Made by a program: the position numbers and the translations under genes | Shown here: positions 4,486 to 16,545 of the stretch, piece by piece | Layout of the letters: every line of letters begins with the position of its first letter | Position numbering within the stretch: position 1 is the stretch's first letter | Notes under the pieces: generated by a model | The model's database searches: none | What the model was told of the DNA's origin: nothing | The model's input: only the letters and a program-made list of their open reading frames with translations | From: a bacterium | Lineage (GTDB): Bacteria; JAJVIF01; JAGGVT01 | Direction of reading: 5' to 3' | Assembly: GCA_021157815.1 (NCBI GenBank) | Contig: JAGGVT010000080.1 | Span: 1 to 26,341, forward strand | Length of the DNA stretch: 26,341 nt

Positions 4486-5790
4486 TTACTTTTTGTCTGT
4501 GTTGTATTCATCCTGCAATTCCTTAAGACGTTCAGCTGAGAGTAGCACGCAATCCTCGACTTTGGCTTTGCCGTTGGAGACATCCCCGGCAAACGCACTG
4601 CAGGTTGGAGCGCCGCACAAGCCGCAGTCGATTCCGGGAAGTTTTCTGACAAGATTTTCCCTAATCTTCATCTTGATAATCTGCTCTTCAATGCTCACAA
4701 GAACATCCGGATTCTTTCTAGGTTCCAGTTGCTGCGAAATGTAATAATCACCCTTCTTATATTTACGCCTGGCGTCCTCCAGCACTTTCTCGCCCTCATC
4801 CTCCATTGACGCAATCAGGTTTTGAATTTTACTCCTTGCGACAAAAGTATCCTCTACTGTAAGAGAGCCGCCAACACATCCACCAAGGCAGGCGTAACAT
4901 TCAAGAAATTCAATATCCCTGATTTTGCCTTTCTCGATATCATCAAATATTCGAATAATATTCGGCATCTGCGCCACGGTGAGGAATCTGCTTGGTTTAA
5001 TCGAAACGCTCTGCCCTCCGGTAAGCGCCCAGCTCAAACTAGTTCTGCTCTGGTGAAGGGATCCCTGTTTATTAACCTTATTATTATTTTGTTTTCCTTT
5101 TGTAATTGCAGAAAAGAGAGGGTTATATATTTCAGAAATGCCTATCGCAAGGTCAAGATGGCTTTTCACGTCCTCTGCAGGTTGTTTTATCGCAATCATT
5201 TTTGACGGGCATGGTGTGAGATAAATCACTCCGATATCGCTTTCCTTAAGGCCTGTTTCTTTGGCATAGTGCTTTTTCACTTCCCTCGCTGCGATTTCGC
5301 GAGGCGGTTGAATTGGGATAATCTGTTTGACCATATTTGGATATGCAACTTGGATAAGCCTGATAACCACCGGACATGCTGATGAAATAAGGGGCAATGG
5401 GCCTTTGTATTCATCCAGGTAATCACGAATTGCCATATTTATTAATTCGCTTTCAACGGATATTTCGTGGACTGCGTCAAATCCAATGGTAATCAATCCC
5501 TCAACAATATCATTCGGCTTGATATCCATTTGAAATTGCCCGAATAGAGTTGGGGAAGGAATCGCGACATTGAACTTGAATTTATCAAGGTCGCGCATGG
5601 AATCAGTGATTGACTTAATCGCCTGCTGCGGACAAGCGAGAATGCAATCACCGCAATCGATGCAAAGGACAGGGTCAATGACGGCTTTACCGTTTTTAAC
5701 GCGAATCGCATGTGTCGGACACACTCTCATGCAGTGCAGTTTTCCGCAGCATTTATCCTGGTCTATTTCCAAAGAGTGTATAAAATCCAT
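4486..5790 (-). CDS. Fe-S protein with [FeFe]-hydrogenase H-cluster-like domain
   Basis: A 434-aa cytoplasmic Fe-S protein of the type annotated as [Fe] hydrogenase large-subunit C-terminal domain protein. Residues 10-60 hold two 4Fe-4S motifs: an unusual first one (C14, C15, C20, C24, with Lys17 at the normal second-Cys position) and a normal one (C43, C46, C49, C53). Residues ~70-330 match the H-cluster domain: SSACP (C139), TPCPSK (C194, K197) and ECYACLGGC (C301, C305). The four cluster Cys equivalents remain, but the proton-relay Cys of catalytic enzymes is Ala138, the second-motif Glu is Ala200, and the third-motif Met is Tyr299. A C-terminal Fe-S domain has C389, C392, C397 and C414. 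Relatives lie beside bifurcating hydrogenase genes in Thermotoga and Clostridium. Catalysis is unlikely; redox sensing or cofactor handling is inferred. It is the last gene of the operon and its ATG overlaps the previous stop (TAATG). Confidence 0.85.
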   Translation of the reverse strand: MDFIHSLEIDQDKCCGKLHCMRVCPTHAIRVKNGKAVIDPVLCIDCGDCILACPQQAIKSITDSMRDLDKFKFNVAIPSPTLFGQFQMDIKPNDIVEGLITIGFDAVHEISVESELINMAIRDYLDEYKGPLPLISSACPVVIRLIQVAYPNMVKQIIPIQPPREIAAREVKKHYAKETGLKESDIGVIYLTPCPSKMIAIKQPAEDVKSHLDLAIGISEIYNPLFSAITKGKQNNNKVNKQGSLHQSRTSLSWALTGGQSVSIKPSRFLTVAQMPNIIRIFDDIEKGKIRDIEFLECYACLGGCVGGSLTVEDTFVARSKIQNLIASMEDEGEKVLEDARRKYKKGDYYISQQLEPRKNPDVLVSIEEQIIKMKIRENLVRKLPGIDCGLCGAPTCSAFAGDVSNGKAKVEDCVLLSAERLKELQDEYNTDKK

Positions 5791-6227
5791 TATGCCTTCT
5801 TGTGGCGGATTGTGATTTTAAGCAGTGTGCCGACACCGACTTCTGATGTCAGTTCGAAACCATCCGCGTTCTTTTTTATATTTGGCAAGCCCATACCGGC
5901 ACCGAATCCCATTTCACGCATTTCCTCCGTCGCGGTTGAATATCCCTCCTTCATCGCCAGTTCAATATCCTCTATTCCTTTTCCCTTGTCCTTTACTGTA
6001 ATCCGTATTTCAACAGGGGTCAGGATGAATTTAAGATCACCTTCATTAGCGTGAATAACCACATTCATTTCCGCTTCGAAGGTGGCTATCGCCACTTTTC
6101 GCACAATATCACTGTTTATTCCTACGCTTTTCAGAATAGATTTTATCTCGGTTGATACTTCGCCAGCCTTATCAAAATCTCCCCCCTTGATAAAAAACTC
6201 CTTCTGATAAAGCTCAGTTCCCGGCAT
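5790..6227 (-). CDS. RsbW-like HATPase (anti-sigma/serine kinase family)
   Basis: A 145-aa GHKL ATP-binding protein of the RsbW/SpoIIAB anti-sigma kinase type. Visible motifs are the N-box E51-x3-N55-x3-HA, the G1 box DKGKG (80-84) and the G2 region GFGAGMGLPNIKK (~107-119). There is no sensor or membrane segment. The open frame extends to 6389, but its first 54 residues are the antisense-like overlap of the preceding DRTGG gene. ATG 6227 lies one base after that gene's stop and behind a GGGGG stretch, so I start it there. The stop overlaps the next gene's ATG. Homologues sit beside bifurcating hydrogenase genes in clostridia. Known RsbW partners are a sigma factor and a STAS antagonist; the only STAS protein here is at 20064-20882. 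Confidence 0.85.
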   Translation of the reverse strand: MPGTELYQKEFFIKGGDFDKAGEVSTEIKSILKSVGINSDIVRKVAIATFEAEMNVVIHANEGDLKFILTPVEIRITVKDKGKGIEDIELAMKEGYSTATEEMREMGFGAGMGLPNIKKNADGFELTSEVGVGTLLKITIRHKKA

Positions 6228-6228
6228 A

Positions 6229-6600
6229 TTAACATACCCCCCTGAGTCCCTTTGCATAAAGAACCCCACAGACATCGAACATCCCCATTTTTGTTGACAG
6301 TATTGGAATCTTGAGTTCTTCCGCCAGTTGAATTGTCTTTTCTTCAGGGATTTTACCCCGGAGGTAAAGCACCGCCGCGGCATCCGCAAAATCCGCTGTC
6401 CTGACTGATTGTGAGTTTGTCAGGCCGGTAATCATCAACGCGCCCGGTTGTGCAAACGCAAGAACATCGCTCATCATGCCAGAACTTAAAACCAGAGCGA
6501 TTTCAACATCCAGAGAATCAAGGCCAAGCACAATTTCGCAATCGAGAATTTCACTTATCTCTGATAATGTTAGTTTTTTTATTTCATTACGTTCAGCCAC
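6229..6600 (-). CDS. DRTGG-domain-like protein (second copy in operon)
   Basis: A small soluble protein of 123 aa resembling the stand-alone DRTGG domains found beside NuoE/HydB-type genes. Visible are an N-terminal TLSEISEILDCEIV segment, a central SSGMMSDVLAFAQPGALMITGLTNSQSVRTADFAD-type core (given here by position, ~42-76) and a C-terminal PEEKTIQLAEELKIPILST segment. It is a distant paralogue of the 14162-14491 protein: both have the SDMVSD/MMSDVL motif and an A..AD..I...S ending. Start choice: AAGGTGA lies five bases before GTG 6600, whereas the longer GTG 6609 sits inside that ribosome-binding site. It follows nfnB by 18 bases and is followed after one base by the HATPase. Function is unknown; regulation by a bound nucleotide is a guess from the domain family. 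Confidence 0.75.
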   Translation of the reverse strand: MAERNEIKKLTLSEISEILDCEIVLGLDSLDVEIALVLSSGMMSDVLAFAQPGALMITGLTNSQSVRTADFADAAAVLYLRGKIPEEKTIQLAEELKIPILSTKMGMFDVCGVLYAKGLRGVC

Positions 6601-6618
6601 TAAATTCACCTTATAGAT

Positions 6619-8061
6619 TTATTGTTTAACATAGATATCATTTTCCTGCTCCCCACCTGACAGGTATTCATGCATGGAACGCGCGGCTACTCTCCCCGCT
6701 CCCATTGCCATTATAACAGTCGCCGTGCCTGTCGCAACATCCCCGCCAGCCCAAATTCTCTCCATCGATGTTTTCCCTGTTTCAGGTTCTATTTCTATAT
6801 TTCCCTTCCTTCCAATTTTAAGCCCGGGAGTGGTTCGTGGAATCAACGGATTCGGGCTGTTTCCAATCGCGCATACTGCAGCGTCAGCCTCCATGAAAAA
6901 CTCCGAACCTTCGATTGGTACTGGCCGGCGCCTTCCTGACGCGTCCGGCTCGCCAAGTTCCATCTTCAAACATTCAGCGCCTTTGAGCCATCCATTTTCA
7001 TCGCCAACGAGTTTAATTGGATTTGTAAGGAAATCGAAAATCACTCCCTCTTCCTCTGCGTTTTCTACCTCCTCTCCTCTTGCCGGCAATTCCTTTTTAG
7101 ATCTGCGATATACAATATGCGATTCATCCGAACCAAGCCTTAGAGCTGTTCTGGCGCAATCCATCGCGACATTCCCGCCGCCGAATGTCAACACCCTGCG
7201 CGGTCTCTTGATCGGCGTGTTGTAATCGGGAAACAGGTAGCCCTTCATCAGGTTTACACGCGTTAGATATTCGTTCGCTGAAAATACGCCGTTAAGATTT
7301 TCACCCGGTATATCCAGAAACCACGGAAGTCCCGCGCCTGTTCCGATGAATATCACATCGTATTCCTCAAGCAGACTTGCGATAGTTCTTGTCTTGCCCA
7401 CCACGAAATCATATTTAACTTTTACTCCGAGTTTCTGAACGTAATCCATCTCACGTTTGACAATAGCTTTTGGCAGCCTGAACTCCGGAATGCCGTAGAT
7501 AAGAACTCCGCCGGGTTCGTGAAGCGCCTCGAAAATGGTTATATCGTGCCCCTTCACAACCAGGTCAGCGGCAACAGTAAGCCCCGCCGGACCCGCTCCC
7601 ACAATCGCCACTTTTTTTTCTGTTGATTCTGCAATCTTTGGATATTCCAATGTGTCCTGTGATGCTTCCCAGTCAGCAATAAATCTCTCAAGACGCCCAA
7701 TAGAAACAGGTTCATGCTTGACTCCGACAATGCACAATTTTTCACACTGCTCCTCCTGAGGGCAAACACGGCCACAAACTGCGGGAAGAGCATTTTTATC
7801 CTTCATTACTTTTGCCGCTTCCTTGAAATTCCCATCAGCAATAAGACCGATAAATTCAGGAATCCTTACCTCAACAGGACAGCCTTCCCTGCATTTTGGC
7901 TTTTTGCATTGAAGACATCTGCTTGCTTCCTCCATGGCAAGTTTCTCAGTGAAGCCCAGAGCCACCTCATCGAAATTACGGACACGCTCCTCGGGTGTCT
8001 GCTTGGGCATATTTACCCTGTTTGGTTTTATCTTCGATTTCTTTTTCTTCTCTTCAGCCAT
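6619..8061 (-). CDS. nfnB: NfnB-like NADPH/ferredoxin flavoprotein (glutamate synthase small-subunit family)
   Basis: A 480-aa flavoprotein of the GltD/NfnB family. A Lys-rich N-terminus leads to two 4Fe-4S sites: C49, C52, C57, C61 and C96, C100, C106, C110. The FAD-binding VAIVGAGPAGL motif is near residues 150-160, the NADP-binding FGGGNVAMDCARTALRLG motif lies mid-protein, and a C-terminal FAD segment reads WAGGDVATGTATVIMAMGAG. In NfnAB this subunit carries the bifurcating FAD and the ferredoxin/NADPH sites. Length and motif order are typical. It lies downstream of nfnA, but 206 bases separate them, mostly a repeat element (8121-8243), instead of the usual tight coupling. The ribosome-binding site is weak (AGAGG ~13 bases upstream). 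A GltD-like role is possible, but no glutamate synthase large subunit is present and nfnA is adjacent. Confidence 0.9.
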   Translation of the reverse strand: MAEEKKKKSKIKPNRVNMPKQTPEERVRNFDEVALGFTEKLAMEEASRCLQCKKPKCREGCPVEVRIPEFIGLIADGNFKEAAKVMKDKNALPAVCGRVCPQEEQCEKLCIVGVKHEPVSIGRLERFIADWEASQDTLEYPKIAESTEKKVAIVGAGPAGLTVAADLVVKGHDITIFEALHEPGGVLIYGIPEFRLPKAIVKREMDYVQKLGVKVKYDFVVGKTRTIASLLEEYDVIFIGTGAGLPWFLDIPGENLNGVFSANEYLTRVNLMKGYLFPDYNTPIKRPRRVLTFGGGNVAMDCARTALRLGSDESHIVYRRSKKELPARGEEVENAEEEGVIFDFLTNPIKLVGDENGWLKGAECLKMELGEPDASGRRRPVPIEGSEFFMEADAAVCAIGNSPNPLIPRTTPGLKIGRKGNIEIEPETGKTSMERIWAGGDVATGTATVIMAMGAGRVAARSMHEYLSGGEQENDIYVKQ

Positions 8062-8120
8062 ATTGTGGATTTAACCTCTGGTTATTTTGCACTTATAGAC
8101 TTTTGTTTTATTGCCTCTTA

Positions 8121-8243
8121 CTTCCCCCCCTTAATCCCCCCGCGAGCGTGGGGAAACAACTGACTCCCTCCCCGCCCGCGATGAGGGCAGGGATTGGGAC
8201 ATCTTGCTCCCTCCCCGCTCGCGGGGAGGGCTGGGGTGGGGGC
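8121..8243. repeat. C/G-rich palindromic repeat, copy 1 (between nfnA and nfnB)
   Basis: The 5' part has CCCCCCGCGAGCGTGGGG and the 3' part has CCCCGCTCGCGGGGAGGG followed by CTGGGGTGGGGGCAT. A second copy at 24544-24669 has the same two ends around a different centre. The translated form (PARGEGWGGG) matches a type of intergenic repeat I recognise from many bacterial genomes. Here it lies inside an operon and would form strong RNA hairpins between two genes whose products normally act one-to-one. Confidence 0.75.
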
Positions 8244-8267
8244 ATCATTCTTTCAAGAACAATTAAA

Positions 8268-9122
8268 TCACCTGATAAGTTTGCAATGATACTCTGTTCC
8301 TGTTCCGCTTTTTCTCAACGGCGCTGTTTCCTCGTCGTAATATGTCAGGCGCCTTTGCCTGAATTCATCCCAGTCCACAAGGTGGCCATCAAAATCCGGC
8401 CCGTCAACACACGCGAATTTCGTTTCACCATCGACTGTAAGGCGGCACACCCCGCACATGCCTGTGCCGTCAATCATGATTGGATTCATGTTTACGATTG
8501 TTTTTACACCACTCGCTCTTGTAACATCAGATGTTCTATTCAGAAGGAAAGTGCATCCATTAACAATGAATCTGTCCGGCTTGATATTTTTCTCTTTCAG
8601 AATGTCAGGCAGAAGAGAAATATGCCCTGGATACCCCATGGTGCCATCGCGAGTGATTGTAAAAACACTATCGACCAGCTCCTCATACCTTTCCTTCCAG
8701 TAGATAAGATATTGCGACCGCGCCTCAAGAAGCACATGAACCGTATTGCCTGCTTCTTTCAACGCCCTTGCGATGGGATAAATACTGCCAATTCCGAAAC
8801 ATCCACCGACACAAACAACGGTTCCAAAATTCTCAATATCGGTTGGGAGTCCGAGAGGACCCACGAAAGTCGGAATTGTATCGCCGGGTTTTAACAGCGC
8901 AAGAAGCGATGTTGACTCCCCTACTTCAATGAAGAAAGCTGTTACAGTTCCTAATTCGGGATTGTAATCCGAAACGGACAGAGGAATTCGCTCTCCCTTG
9001 TCATCAGGGCGTAGAATTATGAATTGCCCCGGCTGGACTGATTTCGCGACATCCTCAGCCTCAACAACAAGTTCGTGAATATTAGGCACAATCATTCTTC
9101 TTTCGATTATTTTATACTCCAA
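8268..9122 (-). CDS. nfnA: NfnA-like ferredoxin-NADP reductase subunit alpha
   Basis: A 284-aa flavoprotein of the PyrK/NfnA (sulfide dehydrogenase beta) family. The N-terminal beta-barrel has the FAD motif RIPLSVSD (~46-53), the NAD-binding motif is VGGCFGIGSIYPIARAL (~104-120), and the C-terminal 2Fe-2S site is GMCGVCR plus a later Cys in FACVDGPDFDGH. In NfnAB this subunit carries the NAD(H)-reactive FAD and a 2Fe-2S cluster. The start is TTG 9122: GGAGGTGA lies seven bases before it, and it overlaps the end of the NuoG-like gene by 11 bases, indicating translational coupling. ATG 9095 is possible but would lose the first beta strand. The coupling ties this protein more closely to the NuoG-like subunit than to NfnB. 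Confidence 0.9.
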   Translation of the reverse strand: MEYKIIERRMIVPNIHELVVEAEDVAKSVQPGQFIILRPDDKGERIPLSVSDYNPELGTVTAFFIEVGESTSLLALLKPGDTIPTFVGPLGLPTDIENFGTVVCVGGCFGIGSIYPIARALKEAGNTVHVLLEARSQYLIYWKERYEELVDSVFTITRDGTMGYPGHISLLPDILKEKNIKPDRFIVNGCTFLLNRTSDVTRASGVKTIVNMNPIMIDGTGMCGVCRLTVDGETKFACVDGPDFDGHLVDWDEFRQRRLTYYDEETAPLRKSGTGTEYHCKLIR

Positions 9123-11673
9123 CCTTTTTCACCTCCACCGGGCATGGGTTGGTTTCCAATCTGAATAGCTGCTCGAGGTCACATCTATCTTTCAATCCGC
9201 CGAATGCAAGTGGTTTGAACAGATAAATCGCGCCTTTTGGAATTTCATCCTCGATTCGCGCGCACGCAGTGCCGCTTTTATCCCCAGCTGTAACAATGAG
9301 CTTCTCGCCCTCTGTGATTCCAAGTTCCTTCGCATCCTCGGAATTCAGATGAAACCCCTCCTCAGGATTCAGTATCTGCAAGCCTTCAACCTTCGACGTT
9401 ATATCAACGCCCCGATATGAATAACCGCCGGGCTGCATGACCAGAAGGAATCCGCTTTTTTTACGCGGTTTTGCCGACACCGGCACTGTTTCAGGAAGCA
9501 CTGTCTCGACTCTTAAAGTGTCCATTTTGCGATGAATCCTTCCTGATTTTGGAAAGCCATCGGCAAGGTCGGATATTTCATCGAGTACGTTATCCGAACT
9601 TTCATAGTCAAATCCAGCGACATCAAGTTGCTTTGCTATTTGGGAAAGTATCCACCAGTCGGGACGAGCTCTGCCGTACATAACACTATCAGGCAATTTC
9701 TCGACACCCGGCGCGTCCTGAACACGACCCTCCATGTTGACCAGTGTTCCTGATGATTCGAGAAAACTTGTCGCTGGCAAATAGAGATCAACATCAAAAT
9801 CAGGCTCGTAAATATCCTGTACTATTAAATAATCGCAATCCGGCCTTTGCGCAAATGGCACCGCACCGACCAGATAAAGAACTTTGGGACGGCATTCTCC
9901 CGCTTGTATTTTATCAATCGTGATTCCATCATCTTTGGGAAATTTAACTTTCCATGCGGATTCCAGTTTCTTGGTAGTTTTCTCGTCGCCTTTGAAAACC
10001 GCTCCGGGAAGGATTTCAGGAAATGCGCCAAGGTCAATGGCGCCTCGAGTATTAGTGCCGTAGTAAAGGGGAATTATGGATACATTATCCTTTTTGGATA
10101 GTTCAGTGATACTGCTTATCAAATCAGCGTTGTCAGTATAGCTGAAAATTCTCGGACCGACAATGACCATCAGGTCATCCTGGCCTTTTAAAAGCTCAAG
10201 CGCATCCGCGAGTTTTTCCTTTTTAACACCGCTTAACTTCAATTCCTTTTTCAAATCTGTCGCGTTGTTAAAAAGGCTTTTCACAAGGGCATCAAGCATG
10301 ATTCCCTCAGTCGCGGGTTCGACTTGAAGCCAGCAGTGGGAATATTGCGCGAGGTTGGAGCGTCTTGAGTTTATGGTAACCAGCCTTGCTCCCGCTTTGA
10401 TTGCCTTTCTAATTTCAACGCCGATTATTGAAAAATTGAATCTCGTATCAAGCCCTATCGCAAGTATGGTTTTCGCTTTCTTTATTTCCTGAATTTTAAT
10501 CGGTTTCTGGAACATCCTTTCCCAGAACGGCAAACCACCGCCCAGTGATGATCTTGCGGTTGAGTCTATTGAATTTGATTGCATGACAGTACGGACAAAT
10601 TTCTGCGCCGTGAATAAACTTTCGTTCGTGCAGTCAGGCGAGATAAGCATCGCGAATTCATCCGGTTTCAAATCCTTTAGTTTTTCCGCCGCTTTTTCAA
10701 TTGCTTCATCCCATAACTGCTCTTTCCAGTAACCATCGATTCGAGCCATTGGCTTACGAGCTCGTTCGAAATGATGTGAAACCTCACCCATACAGAACCT
10801 GCCTTTCAGGCAAGCCTGTCCATCGTTGACTTCTGAATCATGTACAGGAACCGCTTTCGAGAACCATCCATCCTTGTGAAACAGTTCTAGCTGGCATCCT
10901 ATTGCGCAGTACGGGCAGGTTGCAATTACACTGCCATCCGGGATGCCATCCCATTTACTGGCTTTCTCTGCAAGCGCGCCTGTCGGGCAGACATTGATGC
11001 ATGCGCCGCAGAATTCACAACCCGCCTCGATGTGATTCCTTCCAAACGCAGTACCCACTCTCGTTTTGTTTCCCCTGAAGTTAAAAGCCAACACCGATGT
11101 TCCTCGCACCTCCTGGCACATTCGAATGCATCGTCCGCAAAGTATGCACAGGTTGTAATCCCTGTCGAAAAACGGATCCATCCTTTCAGGTTCATGCTCC
11201 TTGTAAATCACAGGATAGCTTAGTTCAGTGATTCCAAGATAGTTGACAACGTCCTGTAATTCGCACTGTCCATCGTTGGGACAGTAGCGGCATCCGGTTG
11301 TTACTCCCGATTTTCTAACCGTTTTCGTGAACGGTTTGCATTCATCTGCTTCTTTACATATCAGGCAGCTTGATGGGTGTTCGCTTAAAATCAGTTGGAC
11401 AAGTTCTGTTCTGATTTCCCTTATTGCTTCCGTCTCTGTCAATACCACCATTCCATCATCCGCGATTGTGCTGCATGAAAGCGGATATCCGCGCATGCCC
11501 TCTATTTCAACAATACATAACCGGCATCCGCCAAATGGTGAAAGGTCCTTGTGTGAACACAAAGTTGGAATGTAGATGTCATTCAGTTCCGCTGCACGAA
11601 GGACTGTAACTCCCTCAGGCGCTTCGACTTCCCGTGTGTTGAATGTCAGTTTTATCTTTGAGTTATTAGCCAT
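9112..11673 (-). CDS. NuoG/formate-dehydrogenase-like molybdopterin-oxidoreductase family subunit
   Basis: An 853-aa multi-cluster Fe-S protein. In order: 2Fe-2S domain (C39, C50, C53, C67); His-ligated 4Fe-4S site (H99, C103, C106, C112); an extra CxxC...C group (C128, C131, C137); two ferredoxin-type 4Fe-4S sites (C176, C179, C182, C186; C219, C222, C225, C229); the molybdopterin-oxidoreductase 4Fe-4S site (C253, C256, C260, C288); then molybdopterin-binding-fold domains with the C-terminal dinucleotide-binding-like domain at ~730-850. Where formate dehydrogenases carry the Cys/Sec metal ligand, this protein reads STARSSLGGG (371-380), so Ser replaces it. It may be an electron-wiring NuoG-type subunit or an enzyme with unknown substrate. 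AAGGA precedes ATG 11673. It follows the NuoF-like gene by 29 bases and overlaps nfnA. Confidence 0.87.
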   Translation of the reverse strand: MANNSKIKLTFNTREVEAPEGVTVLRAAELNDIYIPTLCSHKDLSPFGGCRLCIVEIEGMRGYPLSCSTIADDGMVVLTETEAIREIRTELVQLILSEHPSSCLICKEADECKPFTKTVRKSGVTTGCRYCPNDGQCELQDVVNYLGITELSYPVIYKEHEPERMDPFFDRDYNLCILCGRCIRMCQEVRGTSVLAFNFRGNKTRVGTAFGRNHIEAGCEFCGACINVCPTGALAEKASKWDGIPDGSVIATCPYCAIGCQLELFHKDGWFSKAVPVHDSEVNDGQACLKGRFCMGEVSHHFERARKPMARIDGYWKEQLWDEAIEKAAEKLKDLKPDEFAMLISPDCTNESLFTAQKFVRTVMQSNSIDSTARSSLGGGLPFWERMFQKPIKIQEIKKAKTILAIGLDTRFNFSIIGVEIRKAIKAGARLVTINSRRSNLAQYSHCWLQVEPATEGIMLDALVKSLFNNATDLKKELKLSGVKKEKLADALELLKGQDDLMVIVGPRIFSYTDNADLISSITELSKKDNVSIIPLYYGTNTRGAIDLGAFPEILPGAVFKGDEKTTKKLESAWKVKFPKDDGITIDKIQAGECRPKVLYLVGAVPFAQRPDCDYLIVQDIYEPDFDVDLYLPATSFLESSGTLVNMEGRVQDAPGVEKLPDSVMYGRARPDWWILSQIAKQLDVAGFDYESSDNVLDEISDLADGFPKSGRIHRKMDTLRVETVLPETVPVSAKPRKKSGFLLVMQPGGYSYRGVDITSKVEGLQILNPEEGFHLNSEDAKELGITEGEKLIVTAGDKSGTACARIEDEIPKGAIYLFKPLAFGGLKDRCDLEQLFRLETNPCPVEVKKVGV

Positions 11674-11702
11674 GATTCCTTCGCTGAAAAAGAAATATGT
11701 TA

Positions 11703-13595
11703 TTAAGATTTATCCTCGCCTGACACAATCTCGATAGCGTCACCCGCGATAGCGTCAAATCGGCATACCTCGTAACAGGCACGGCATTTTATGCACTTAC
11801 TCTCATCCAGATTATGCGGTTCAGATCGGGGACCGGTAATCGCGCCTGTCGGGCAAACTTTCACACAGGCCTGACAACCCGTGCATTTTTCTGGAATAAT
11901 TCTGAAAACGACAAGGTCGCGGCAAACCGCTGCCGGACATCTTTTATCAATAATATGAGCAAGATATTCATCACGGAAATATTTTAATGTTGAAAGGACC
12001 GGATTTGGTGCAGTTTGCCCAAGACCGCAAAGCGCCGAGCGTTTGATTGATTCACCAAGTTTCTCAAGTTTTTCCAAATCAGAAAGTTCGCCTTCACCCT
12101 TTGTGATTTTCTCAAGTATATTCACCAAATGACGGGTTCCCACGCGGCACGGAACACATTTGCCACATGATTCCTGCTGTGTAAATTTGAGAAAGTACTT
12201 CGCCAGATCAACTACGCATGTATCCTTGTCCAGAACGATAATCCCACCAGATCCCATAATTGATCCGACTTTCGCGAGGTTTTCATAATCAACGGGCATG
12301 TCAAGGAATTCCTCGGAGAGGCATCCGCCGGATGGGCCTCCTGTCTGCACCGCTTTGAATGGTTTAAACAGTCCGCCGCCAATATCGAAAATAATCTTCC
12401 TTAGTGTTGTTCCCATCGGGACTTCAATCAGTCCGGTACGGCGAACTCGCCCTACAAGAGAAAACGTTTTTGTACCCTTGCAGGCTTCAGTTCCAAAATC
12501 TGTGTACCAGTCAGCGCCACGGCGTATGATATTTGCAATCGTTCCAAGAGTTTCGACATTGTTGATAATTGTAGGCTTGCCCCATAATCCGGCAACAGCA
12601 GGAAATGGAGGGCGAGTACGCGGCATTCCCCTATTGCCCTCAATAGAGGCTATCAGCGCTGTTTCCTCGCCGCAGACAAAAGCGCCTGCCCCTTCTTTTA
12701 TTTTAATTTCGAGATTGAATCCTGAACCAAGAATATTCTCCCCTATCAGCCCAAGTTCCTCCATTTGGGAAATCGCTTTTTCGAGACGGCTAATAGCCAG
12801 CGGATATTCAGCGCGGATATAGATGTACGCTTTCGATGCGCCAATTGTATATGCGGCAATAACCAGCCCTTCCAAAACCGCGTGAGGGTCTCCCTCAATT
12901 AAGGAGCGATTCATAAACGCGCCTGGGTCGCCCTCATCGGCGTTGCATATCATGTATTTTTGGTCAGATTCAACATCACGGCAGAATTTCCATTTTTTCC
13001 ATGTAGGGAATCCCGCTCCGCCTCTACCTCTCAATCCTGACTGCTTGATTAAATCAAGCGTTTCCTCCCACGGTTTCGACAGTACGCTTTCAAGAGCGAC
13101 ATACCCGTCACGAGCAAGATAATGGTCAATCTCGGACGGGTCTATAATTCCGCAATTACGAAGAACAATCCGAACCTGCGGTTTAATCATCGGGTGGTCA
13201 TAAAAGCGCGGAATATCATCACCGTAATCTCCATTGTCGCCGAAATGCCCTACAAGCCCGAGTTTTGGTATTTCATCTTTTAAGAAAAATCGCTTTATAA
13301 TTTTCTCAGCTTTCTCTTCATTTACATTGGAGAAACAAATTCTTGGCTTGCCCGGCGGTTTGATATCCATCAGAGGTTCAAGATAACAAGGACCAATACA
13401 TCCAACCTCGATAATATCAGCGTCAACGCCAATCTCTTTGAGAGTCTTCTTCGCAGCTTTTATTGTTTCCTGTGCACCCGCCGCATTTCCGCAGGTAGCG
13501 GCCCCGAAAAACAATATTGGTTTTTTATTTTCTTCAAGAGATTTCCACTTTATTTCAGCGGTTTTTCTTCTCTTATTTAACGCGGTTTTACTCAT
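11703..13595 (-). CDS. NuoF/HydB-like NADH-binding flavoprotein
   Basis: A 630-aa subunit of the NuoF/HydB/HndC family. Residues ~25-105 are a thioredoxin-like 2Fe-2S domain (C35, C66 and C70 seen; the fourth ligand is unclear). The FMN/NADH core follows, with GLRGRGGAGFPTWKKW and NADEGDPGAFMNRSLIEGDP, then an SLBB domain and a 4Fe-4S site in ESCGKCVPCRVGT plus a distal Cys. The C-terminus carries a two-cluster ferredoxin domain (CTGCQACVKVCP and CIKCRACYEVC). The fusion of N-terminal 2Fe-2S and C-terminal ferredoxin domains is the layout of bifurcating HydB/HndC rather than complex I NuoF. It would oxidise or reduce NAD(P)(H) at FMN. The ATG overlaps the NuoE-like stop by eight bases. Confidence in the family is high; the actual partner is inferred from order. 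Confidence 0.92.
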   Translation of the reverse strand: MSKTALNKRRKTAEIKWKSLEENKKPILFFGAATCGNAAGAQETIKAAKKTLKEIGVDADIIEVGCIGPCYLEPLMDIKPPGKPRICFSNVNEEKAEKIIKRFFLKDEIPKLGLVGHFGDNGDYGDDIPRFYDHPMIKPQVRIVLRNCGIIDPSEIDHYLARDGYVALESVLSKPWEETLDLIKQSGLRGRGGAGFPTWKKWKFCRDVESDQKYMICNADEGDPGAFMNRSLIEGDPHAVLEGLVIAAYTIGASKAYIYIRAEYPLAISRLEKAISQMEELGLIGENILGSGFNLEIKIKEGAGAFVCGEETALIASIEGNRGMPRTRPPFPAVAGLWGKPTIINNVETLGTIANIIRRGADWYTDFGTEACKGTKTFSLVGRVRRTGLIEVPMGTTLRKIIFDIGGGLFKPFKAVQTGGPSGGCLSEEFLDMPVDYENLAKVGSIMGSGGIIVLDKDTCVVDLAKYFLKFTQQESCGKCVPCRVGTRHLVNILEKITKGEGELSDLEKLEKLGESIKRSALCGLGQTAPNPVLSTLKYFRDEYLAHIIDKRCPAAVCRDLVVFRIIPEKCTGCQACVKVCPTGAITGPRSEPHNLDESKCIKCRACYEVCRFDAIAGDAIEIVSGEDKS

Positions 13596-14064
13596 CAGTT
13601 ACCTCAACGCTTTGAGTGTATTTCTCAAGCACATCCATGAGCTTGAGCACAGACATCTGGCTGTATATTTTGTCATCGATTTTTATAACCGGTGCAAGCG
13701 CGCAGCATCCAAGACATGCTACACGATTCAAATCAAACCTGCCGTCCTCGGTTGTCTGGCCTTCCTTGATGCCAAGTTCATATTCAAGCATATTAAGAAT
13801 CTGCTGCCCTCCTTTTACATGGCACGCTGTCCCCATACAAACATAAATTGAATGTTCACCCGGTGGAGTAAATCTGAATTGTGCATAGAAAGTTGAGACG
13901 CCATAAATTTCATTTTCAGAAATTCTAAGCTTGTCTGAAATTAGTTTGATTGATTCAGGAGATATAAATCCTTCAACCTCCTGAACCTTCTGGAGCATAG
14001 GTATAAGATTCTCCCGTCTTGTGGAGAATTTTTCCAAAACAGAAGCCGCGGTTTTTACAACCAT
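13588..14064 (-). CDS. NuoE/HydC-like 2Fe-2S subunit
   Basis: A 158-aa thioredoxin-like ferredoxin of the NuoE/HydC/HndA family. Cluster ligands are C76, C81, C117 and C121, in VCMGTACH and ACLGCC; the N-terminal helical bundle and the GVSTFYAQFRF motif are typical. It normally pairs with the NuoF-like subunit, which follows with an eight-base overlap. The open frame begins at 14082, but GGAGG at 14071-14075 sits six bases before ATG 14064, so that start is used. Length is normal for the family. Confidence 0.92.
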   Translation of the reverse strand: MVVKTAASVLEKFSTRRENLIPMLQKVQEVEGFISPESIKLISDKLRISENEIYGVSTFYAQFRFTPPGEHSIYVCMGTACHVKGGQQILNMLEYELGIKEGQTTEDGRFDLNRVACLGCCALAPVIKIDDKIYSQMSVLKLMDVLEKYTQSVEVTDE

Positions 14065-14161
14065 TACTTCCCTCCGTCTCACAGTATTCCAAAGGAAAAT
14101 AAAAAGGGAAACACACCAGCGTCCCTCAACGCCATGTTACCCTCATTGCAAGCATGAATAA

Positions 14162-14491
14162 CTACTCTATTCCAAGTTCGTGCAGTTTAATCGCCAGTTT
14201 CCATGTGTCCAGATCTGATGAAAACAGCGTTATTCCCGCCTTGTCAGCAAGTGCAATGACATCATCAAGCGGTTTCTTGGCACGAACAAAGATAATTGCT
14301 GAAATATCAACAAGGTTTGCGGTTGCAATCAAGTTCTTGTGCATTTGTATAGTCATCAGCAAATTGCCGGCTTGAGCTCCGGAAACGATGTCGCTGACCA
14401 TGTCTGAGATAAAAACACCATCGATATCCTTGTCATAGATAGCGTTAAGCGGTGTCATGCCAATTTTTTCTGCCAGTTCTGATACTTTCAT
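14162..14491 (-). CDS. DRTGG-domain-like protein (first gene of redox operon)
   Basis: A 109-aa soluble protein made of one DRTGG-like domain: MKVSELAEKIGMTPLNA at the start, the SDMVSDIVSGAQAGNLLMTIQMHKN core (positions ~29-53), and a C-terminal ADKAGITLFSSDLDTWKLA segment. Such single-domain genes sit directly before NuoE/HydC-type genes in anaerobes. GAGG lies ten bases before ATG 14491. The NuoE-like gene starts 97 bases downstream. A distant second copy sits at 6229-6600 in the same operon. Biochemical role is unknown; regulation of the complex is inferred from conserved neighbourhood only. Confidence 0.8.
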   Translation of the reverse strand: MKVSELAEKIGMTPLNAIYDKDIDGVFISDMVSDIVSGAQAGNLLMTIQMHKNLIATANLVDISAIIFVRAKKPLDDVIALADKAGITLFSSDLDTWKLAIKLHELGIE

Positions 14492-14758: not shown

Positions 14759-15286
14759 TTAATATATTTCGGTCATTCCCATATCGGCGATTATCTCACC
14801 TTTGCAGGTGTCAAAATTCTTTATAAAACTGTCAGGCACGAACAGAATTTTCTTTCCGGGTGTTTTAATCCTGCTGTTGAAATACTCTGTAAGGGCACGT
14901 GTTTCCTCCTGGGTTACAGCTTTTGACATTCCACTTGGATCCTCGGAAAGCGCGACATAAACCCACGTTTTGTTTTCGCCCACGATATTGGCAAGTTGCG
15001 CCGCGTTGCAGGTTGGGTCACATTCGGTGCAAAGCATCAACCCGACTACGTTGTCCAGTTTAACTATTTTTTTGTGTTTCGCGCATTCAAGATCAAATTT
15101 CACAGCCTGAGCGCTGCCGAGATATTTCCAAGTGAATTCACCATCAGTATAGTTGTCTATTGGTGGAGTATCCTCAAGTGAGAAAAAAGACTGCCTTGCC
15201 CCTGTTTCGACACATCGTTCGGTAACAAGATAGCCGTTTCGAATGTTTATAATCCGCCATTCATGCTGGCTTTCTGTTTCAGTCAT
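14759..15286 (-). CDS. Uncharacterised Cys-rich protein
   Basis: A 175-aa soluble protein that I do not recognise. There is no signal peptide or membrane segment. Six cysteines are present; the notable group is C68-x2-H71 followed by C86-x2-C89-x3-C93 (CAKH and CTECDPTC), which could hold zinc or an Fe-S cluster. The C-terminal half (KTWVYVALSEDPSGMS, KKILFVPDSFIKNF) looks alpha/beta. GGAG lies five bases before ATG 15286, so the start is sound. It lies upstream of the redox operon on the same strand but a 136-base repeat element separates them; it is divergent from apbE across 176 bases. Confidence 0.7.
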   Translation of the reverse strand: MTETESQHEWRIINIRNGYLVTERCVETGARQSFFSLEDTPPIDNYTDGEFTWKYLGSAQAVKFDLECAKHKKIVKLDNVVGLMLCTECDPTCNAAQLANIVGENKTWVYVALSEDPSGMSKAVTQEETRALTEYFNSRIKTPGKKILFVPDSFIKNFDTCKGEIIADMGMTEIY

Positions 15287-15462: not shown

Positions 15463-16545
15463 ATGATGACTTCAAGTGAAAAGAAATATAATATCATTGG
15501 ATATGAGTTGGTTCTCCTCATCGCGATTCTCACAGGAATCGGACTATGGCAGACGAGAAATTCAACACCGCAATTGATTGCGCATGAACGTAATCCCGTC
15601 GGAATCATGGGAACAAGCTGCAGGATTATCGCTGTCGATGATGGCTCTTCCCGCATTGATGTTGAAAATGTTCTAATTAAGGCAGAGAAAAAGATTCGGA
15701 ACATTGAGGCTTTGATGAGCGTTCACCTTGATAATTCCGAGGTTTCAATTTTCAATCGTTCTGAATCCGGCTCAATTCCATTAAGTTTGGACACGCGGCA
15801 GGTCTTATTTCATTCACTCATGATGCATCGTTCTTCAGAAGGCGCTTTTGATATAACCTGCAGACCAATTATCGAGCTTTGGAAGAAAGCCTCAAAACAG
15901 GGACGCATTCCTCATGAATCAGAAATTCAATTAGCCAAAGAAAGCAGCAATTGGAGTATGATTGAAATTATCAATGCAAATAGTAATGTAAAAAAACTGT
16001 CCGATATTGTTGAAATCGACCTTGGAGGAATCGCAAAGGGACACGCTATTGACAAAGCTTTGAATACTATCTGGAACGCAGGATTAAAAGGCGGACTTGT
16101 CGATGTTGGAGGTGACATCAGATGTTGGGGTGAATCACCCGATGGCTTATGGAAAGTTGATATCCGCAATCCTTTCGATAATGGAGTTTGCGCGCAACTT
16201 GAATTAACAGATTTGGCAGTCTGCACAAGCGGGAATTATAACAGGTATTTTGAAATCGACGGGGTTCGATACAGCCACATAATCGACCCCCGAACCGGAA
16301 TGCCTGCTGACTCTGTGCCATCCGTAACTGTGATAGGCCAAATTACGGCCTTTGCCGATGCATGGGCGACAGCATTAAGTGTGCTTGGAAAAGACGGATT
16401 ATCACTGGAGCCTTTTGGAAATTACGAAGCGATTATTATCACCGGCTCGGCTGATAACTGCAAAGTTTATATGACAGAGAAATGCAGTGATTATTTGGTT
16501 AGTGATTTTCCTGACGGATGGGAAGTTACAATCATTCATAGATAA
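15463..16545 (+). CDS. apbE: ApbE-type FAD:protein FMN transferase, membrane-anchored
   Basis: A 360-aa flavin transferase that attaches FMN covalently to Thr/Ser of target proteins such as RnfG/NqrC-type subunits. An N-terminal hydrophobic segment (~14-29) anchors it outside the cytoplasm; it has no lipobox. Family motifs are all present: EIDLGGIAKGHAID (184-197), VDVGGD (213-218), SHIIDPRTGMP (271-281) and the metal-binding TAFADAWATAL (295-305, with D299 and T303). ATG 15463 and 15466 are both possible. I see no good ribosome-binding site; a TAAAAT hexamer at 15453-15458 is so close that a leaderless transcript is possible. No target flavoprotein (Rnf/Nqr) is in the window. The interrupted GT39-like gene begins 24 bases downstream. 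Confidence 0.9.
   Translation: MMTSSEKKYNIIGYELVLLIAILTGIGLWQTRNSTPQLIAHERNPVGIMGTSCRIIAVDDGSSRIDVENVLIKAEKKIRNIEALMSVHLDNSEVSIFNRSESGSIPLSLDTRQVLFHSLMMHRSSEGAFDITCRPIIELWKKASKQGRIPHESEIQLAKESSNWSMIEIINANSNVKKLSDIVEIDLGGIAKGHAIDKALNTIWNAGLKGGLVDVGGDIRCWGESPDGLWKVDIRNPFDNGVCAQLELTDLAVCTSGNYNRYFEIDGVRYSHIIDPRTGMPADSVPSVTVIGQITAFADAWATALSVLGKDGLSLEPFGNYEAIIITGSADNCKVYMTEKCSDYLVSDFPDGWEVTIIHR

Follow-up and report, generated by a model that had tools for sequence, protein, structure and literature searches.

A recurrent five-gene redox operon uniting HydBC-, NuoG- and NfnAB-like subunits

Does an operon that carries NuoE-, NuoF- and NuoG-like genes together with both nfn genes encode one enzyme or two? 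The question is raised by contig JAGGVT010000080.1 of the bacterial assembly GCA_021157815.1 (GTDB lineage Bacteria; JAJVIF01; JAGGVT01), which we analysed over its full 26,341 nucleotides (the window). Nine adjoining open reading frames (ORFs) occupy positions 4486-14491 of the minus strand in the order DRTGG1-E-F-G-NfnA-NfnB-DRTGG2-HATPase-H-cluster-like. A preliminary description had read them as a nine-gene redox operon, and the ORFs, their strand and their families, assigned with Pfam and NCBIfam, were all confirmed. The five redox subunits are as follows.

13588-14082, minus strand: E, a NuoE/HydC/BfuC-type thioredoxin-like [2Fe-2S] protein, 164 aa (PF01257)
11703-13595, minus strand: F, HydB/StnB/BfuB, 630 aa (PF01512, PF10531, PF10589, Fer4)
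9112-11673, minus strand: G, a NuoG/BfuA-like Fe-S subunit with a degenerate molybdopterin (formate dehydrogenase, FDH) domain, 853 aa (Pfam domains, cluster Cys residues and structural model)
8268-9122, minus strand: variant NfnA, an NfnA-like flavoprotein whose NAD(H) site appears rebuilt, 284 aa (matches to 5jca_S and 4ylf_A)
6619-8061, minus strand: NfnB, a GltD-like NADP(H)/FAD subunit with two [4Fe-4S] sites, 480 aa (Glu125, Arg195 and all cluster Cys residues conserved)

Recurrence and fusion of the five genes

We scanned bacterial and archaeal genomes with an alignment of G and obtained 80 loci. Wherever all five genes were present, they stood in the order E-F-G-NfnA-NfnB (42/42 loci); the preliminary description had proposed this recurrence as a check, and such a conserved order is more than chance. 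Neighbouring gene pairs were no more than 30 bp apart in 30 to 34 of 36 complete loci. In the window, the overlaps noted earlier between E and F and between G and NfnA measured 8 bp and 11 bp, respectively, and F and G were separated by 29 bp; NfnA and NfnB lay 206 bp apart and are not coupled in this genome. Loci with the two-cysteine form of NfnA described below numbered 55 and fell under 18 phylum labels, including two from the Archaea, with the reservation that labels taken from metagenome-assembled genomes (MAGs) may contain errors. The phyla included Chloroflexota (with the cultured Leptolinea tardivitalis, L126), Zixibacteria, Planctomycetota, Bacteroidota, Thermodesulfobacteriota and Acidobacteriota.

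Several gene fusions were detected. One locus, L225, encoded E and F as a single protein (807 aa) and G and variant NfnA as another (848 aa), and a second fusion of G with variant NfnA (830 aa) was present in L224. Three loci (L047, L113 and L224) had the HydB-like F fused at its C-terminus to an extra NfnB-like (GltD) domain, giving proteins of about 1010-1050 aa. Pairwise distance matrices correlated for all subunit pairs, at levels that 0 of 500 permutations reached for any pair and to which shared descent contributes; the correlation was highest for G and NfnA (r = 0.88), and that of E and F was 0.83. Because E-F and, twice, G-NfnA occur as natural fusions, the sequences argue for a single assembly of E, F, G, NfnA and NfnB in which G would touch NfnA. 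One assembly without a hydrogenase had been suggested from the window alone, and this view was strengthened by an order conserved over many phyla, overlap or abutment in most loci, the distance correlations and the fusions.

The altered site of NfnA and the state of its partners

Four short elements of the window, all on the minus strand, bear on what these subunits might do.

8799-8801, minus strand: Cys108 codon of variant NfnA, at the third Gly of the canonical GGGxG loop (residue counts in G-linked and unlinked NfnA)
8724-8726, minus strand: Glu133 codon of variant NfnA, canonical Gly (Glu in 98% of the family, Gly in 100% of the canonical set)
8553-8555, minus strand: Cys190 codon of variant NfnA, at the Pro of the canonical GP motif (residue counts in G-linked and unlinked NfnA)
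10543-10548, minus strand: codons 376-377 of G, Ser-Leu replacing the catalytic Cys/selenocysteine (Sec) and His of FDH (aligned with CARLCH of FDH homologues)

In the FNR fold, NAD(H) is bound by the GGGxG loop, the GP motif and the end of strand 2. Variant NfnA retains the FAD motif (ERxPL) and, for the [2Fe-2S] cluster, the Asp-Cys3 ligands. Five positions set its family apart: C108, G112, E133 and C190, where canonical NfnA has Gly, Ala, Gly and Pro, and W251. Since all of these but W251 fall within the three elements just named, the NAD(H) site appears to have been rebuilt; the canonical loop and GP motif are absent, with GGC and GC in their place. In the predicted structure (predicted local distance difference test, pLDDT, 88.9), C108 is located just after strand 101-106 and C190 just after strand 184-188, which lie next to each other in this fold as beta1 and beta4, and the proximity of the two Cys residues was judged from this strand topology. 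The earlier label 'NfnA-like' was right as to family but overlooked the site built around C108 and C190, which sets the protein apart from an ordinary NfnA. On canonical NfnA, NADH binds at a-FAD (PMC6405883).

C108 and C190 were found together in 63 of 66 G-linked NfnA proteins and in none of 48 unlinked ones (0/48), the latter all with Pro at the second site. When 385 genomes were searched with a profile, 30 loci were obtained: 14 of the two-cysteine (CC) type, each beside G (14/14); 15 canonical, none beside G (0/15); and one with a canonical NfnA next to a G-NfnB fusion. With the new loci counted once, the pair was present in 69/73 G-linked and 0/59 unlinked proteins (Fisher p 3e-33, for occurrences that are not independent events). 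Phylogenetic analysis placed all CC-type NfnA sequences on one side of one branch, within a clade that also holds three exceptions with a canonical site (Shimodaira-Hasegawa-like approximate likelihood ratio test, SH-aLRT, 96), and the Cys pair probably arose once and was then held. We also considered a rule by which NfnA is canonical if the locus has another GltD module; it fits L097, L113 and L203/L226 and was rejected on account of L224 and L133, which break it.

By sequence, NfnB and the E-F core are of bifurcating type. Compared with 36 canonical sequences, the 46 NfnB proteins of the family had the same cluster Cys residues, Glu ligand and FAD-site Arg, with one clear family-specific position; as judged from this alignment, NfnB keeps every tested determinant of bifurcating NfnB. 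F aligned over its full length with 7t2r_B, 9n5u_B, 9bov_B and 8oh5_B, among them the HydB chain of the NiFe enzyme from Acetomicrobium and Sporomusa StnB. Its domains are an N-terminal Cys region, an FMN/NADH domain, SLBB, a NuoF-type 4Fe-4S domain and a C-terminal 2x[4Fe-4S] domain. At the C-terminus it has a Cys motif and two [4Fe-4S] motifs, features absent from non-bifurcating homologues (PMC9304861). By its sequence, F is a complete bifurcating-type HydB. The name 'NuoF' used before gave the family correctly and needs to be extended to a full-length HydB/BfuB, given the end-to-end alignment with bifurcating HydB and StnB chains. All elements of the published sequence definition of Bfu enzymes (PMC9304861) were found, that is, the BfuB domains, a thioredoxin-like BfuC and a BfuA with 2Fe-2S and 4Fe-4S domains.

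G carries molybdopterin-type domains and no H-cluster domain (Fe_hyd_lg_C was not detected in it); its model (pLDDT 87.9) was closest in fold to FDH alpha subunits and NuoG, and its usual cluster Cys residues are invariant or almost so. Because the catalytic Cys/Sec and His are replaced by Ser376 and Leu377, G of the window is predicted to have no working formate site, and formate was rejected as its substrate. The earlier description of G as 'NuoG/FdhA-like' stands for the family and falls for a working FDH. The Cys-His pair is kept in eight of 58 aligned G proteins (window included), all eight being linked relatives, and lost in the others. Six loci (L087, L089, L090, L116, L118 and L133) combine a G bearing this active FDH motif with a two-cysteine NfnA; L089 is an Ammonifex MAG, L116 and L118 are from Methanothrix, and these three have locally only G-NfnA-NfnB. 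Judged by their motifs, such relatives look like an FDH connected to NfnAB, and this type is perhaps the ancestral form. Residues 99-137 of G (window 11263-11379) contain an extra, family-invariant CxxCx5C triad (C128, C131 and C137) after the usual HxxxCxxCx5C motif, a possible site for one more cluster. The triad was rejected as a mark of NfnA linkage because some G homologues without NfnAB carry it as well.

Proposed mechanism and alternatives

We consider it probable that E, F, G, variant NfnA and NfnB form one soluble complex coupling NADP(H) to NAD(H) and ferredoxin, with the NfnA flavin exchanging electrons with G. Gene content and order, the fusions, the residue changes and the lost FDH site are observed here; that the subunits join physically, how electrons travel among them and what is catalysed are what we infer. 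NAD(H) and ferredoxin would react at E-F, the Bfu (HydBC) core, and G, its formate site dead, would act as an iron-sulphur wire carrying electrons. The Cys108/Cys190/Glu133 site would replace the NAD(H) pocket of NfnA, whose FAD would trade electrons with G and not with NAD(H), through a thiol pair, a metal, a small cluster or direct contact. NfnB would bring in NADP(H) and, if still bifurcating, ferredoxin. Because NfnB keeps the bifurcating determinants, two bifurcations in series would be possible within the complex. We suggest only tentatively that two bifurcating centres, the Bfu FMN-FeS centre and the b-FAD of NfnB, do act in series, joined by NfnA with a two-Cys redox link. A serial confurcation, NADH + 6 Fd(red) -> 4 NADPH (Fd(red), reduced ferredoxin), would have a mean donor potential of about -445 mV, versus about -390 mV for Stn or Nfn, at potentials of -280 mV for NADH, -380 mV for NADPH and -500 mV for ferredoxin (PMC9304861). 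NADPH formation would be the likely direction, because the opposite one is uphill.

Several points weigh against such a coupled complex. The distances of F correlate less with those of G and NfnA (0.60-0.64). L089, L116 and L118 have G-NfnA-NfnB without adjacent E-F, F homologues being located elsewhere in those genomes, and because these loci keep the three genes in this way, G-NfnA-NfnB is the tightest unit of the system. Relatives with nfnAB apart from nuoEFG, which the preliminary description had regarded as contrary evidence, occurred in this partial form, in which only the adjacent E-F is lost. As the tree gives a single origin, the association between the Cys pair and G amounts to one evolutionary event plus conservation. 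Four G-linked NfnA proteins (L096, L097, L113 and L203, the last found after the tree) have a canonical site, and the ligand of the Cys pair might be of another kind altogether.

The main rival is an enzyme that works like Stn: the full assembly would form, only its E-F core would bifurcate, and variant NfnA-NfnB would be a non-bifurcating NADPH input module. Stn is the closest characterised analogue, its NfnB-like domain has lost bifurcation, and StnC, which is non-bifurcating, carries like G an inactive FDH-like domain, in its case required for assembly (PMC10482914). We regard this version as rather unlikely, since NfnB of the operon has both cluster motifs of the bifurcating type as well as the Glu ligand and the Arg, and since the operon, unlike Stn, has kept an NfnA whose [2Fe-2S] site is intact.

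Alternatively, variant NfnA might oxidise or reduce a new external substrate, such as a disulfide, with the Cys pair serving as its catalytic dithiol or metal site and G-F-E using NAD(H) and ferredoxin. Both Cys residues are invariant, which fits such chemistry better than simple blocking of NAD, and according to the model and what is known of the FNR fold they are located where nicotinamide would meet the flavin. However, the pair was found with G in all cases, and the fusion of G with variant NfnA in two loci points to G as the partner. Moreover, among the genes tested, no substrate gene was conserved beside the operon outside the DRTGG/HATPase subset. We consider this alternative improbable.

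A Bfu-type NADH:ferredoxin complex and NfnAB could also be two separate enzymes that are merely co-transcribed. Clostridium autoethanogenum has NfnAB beside hydrogenase genes without known association (PMC6405883), and the wide NfnA-NfnB gap of the window would agree with such an arrangement. It is nevertheless very improbable in view of the G-NfnA fusions, the confinement of the NfnA changes to G-linked copies, the strength of the G-NfnA correlation and the presence of a second, ordinary-type NfnA and NfnB in the host genome, on two contigs. Finally, an FDH or a detachable NADH module of complex I is hardly credible: G resembles FdhA and NuoG, nuoABCD is present in the host genome and some relatives keep an active FDH site, but Ser and Leu stand in for the catalytic pair, F bears the ferredoxin-interacting C-terminus of bifurcating enzymes, and nuoABCD lies on another contig without any tie to the operon, on which ground an input module for complex I was rejected.

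Accessory genes, host genome and related systems

The remaining genes of the operon are listed below.

14759-15286, minus strand: first operon gene, 175 aa, with several conserved Cys residues (homologue 5' of DRTGG1 in 17/55 related loci)
14162-14491, minus strand: DRTGG domain protein 1, 109 aa (PF07085 slightly under the cut-off; conserved neighbour)
6229-6609, minus strand: DRTGG domain protein 2 (PF07085; fused with HATPase in many relatives)
5790-6389, minus strand: HATPase, anti-sigma-like (PF13581)
4486-5790, minus strand: H-cluster-like protein with Fe_hyd_lg_C and FeS domains, 434 aa (PF02906, PF04060)

The two DRTGG proteins, the HATPase and the H-cluster-like protein had been named before as accessory, and their families were confirmed by Pfam and NCBIfam. 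Because only 18 of 55 loci hold the H-cluster-like gene with its DRTGG/HATPase neighbours, these genes are accessory; such genes are known beside HydABC operons as well. The nine genes described earlier all stand, and the gene at 14759-15286 belongs to the operon as a tenth. Its product had no match in Pfam or NCBIfam, and homologues occupy the operon head in several phyla. The HATPase ORF (TTG start, 199 aa) is too long, relatives beginning near residue 54 and aligning from about residue 60, and the true start is probably near codon 54. The H-cluster-like protein keeps four Cys residues in SSACP, TPCPSK and CYACLGGC, which presumably sit where ligands of the H-cluster [4Fe-4S] are expected; in place of the presumed proton-relay Cys it has Ala, as do sensory [FeFe] hydrogenases. 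Divergent from the operon, a gene for an ApbE family flavin transferase was found at 15463-16545.

The host has a 3.2 Mb draft genome that is 91% complete, with few close relatives. HydA is missing from the operon, as first stated, yet the genome does encode one, in a separate HydABC on contig C136 that is accompanied by HydE- and HydF-like maturases. HydB of this enzyme (L048, contig C136, 7379-8641) is short (420 aa) and lacks the C-terminal ferredoxin domain, so the enzyme may be an NADH hydrogenase that does not bifurcate. In locus L050 (contig C18, 6375-9881), another NuoF-like protein, of 499 aa, adjoins a fusion of a BfuA-like Fe-S domain with aldehyde ferredoxin oxidoreductase domains 2 and 3.

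Among known systems, Stn (the Sporomusa-type Nfn, StnABC; Nfn-Bfu type 1) shares HydC- and HydB-like, NfnB-like and NuoG-like parts, an inactive FDH domain and, as predicted here, NADPH/NADH/ferredoxin coupling. Its NfnB-like and NuoG-like parts form one chain (StnC), in which Lys replaces the Glu ligand of the proximal cluster, and it has no NfnA (PMC10482914). In contrast, the operon has separate genes for G, variant NfnA and a canonical NfnB with Glu125, and the sequence marks of Stn are lacking. NfnAB is similar in that NfnB here is almost indistinguishable from the canonical protein and variant NfnA keeps the FAD and [2Fe-2S] motifs; it differs in the NAD(H) site (C108, E133 and C190) and in having no HydBC homologue. 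The HydABC/Bfu family (PMC9304861) shares the full HydB- and HydC-type core, but BfuA here has a dead pterin domain and no H-cluster domain, and an NfnAB-type third module is present; a combination of Bfu with NfnAB is not listed in the main text of that study. Bam-Bfu (benzoyl-CoA reductase class II) has been proposed to join a Bfu core and a second bifurcating module in one complex (PMC9304861), with HdrA, not NfnAB, as that module. NfnII (Xfn) of Pyrococcus furiosus, a paralogue of NfnAB, likewise has a changed NAD site in its NfnA, and a putative high-potential partner (PMC8097209); there, a loop blocks the site, Tyr and Pro, not Cys and Cys, occupy the two positions, and no Bfu subunits are known. 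In Seep-SRB1g, fdhF2 lies beside nfnB (PMC10553843), possibly another member of the system.

We found no description of the five-gene complex or of the Cys pair in the open-licence literature searched, which is weak evidence of absence; a widespread five-protein redox system has apparently not been described before. According to PMC10482914, an NfnA homologue is missing from Stn and a HydBC homologue from Nfn; the operon unites both. It occurs in about 18 phyla, mostly in uncultured anaerobes, with L. tardivitalis as a carrier in culture, and 14 of the 385 genomes sampled yielded a two-cysteine NfnA next to G. Should two centres indeed bifurcate in series, the complex would for the first time join the Bfu and Nfn mechanisms directly, giving an NADPH/NADP+ potential beyond the reach of Nfn or Stn. 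If the change in NfnA has been read correctly, an NADH site has been turned into an internal electron link that connects two bifurcating modules, which would make it testable how bifurcation stacks and how anaerobes set their NADPH potential.

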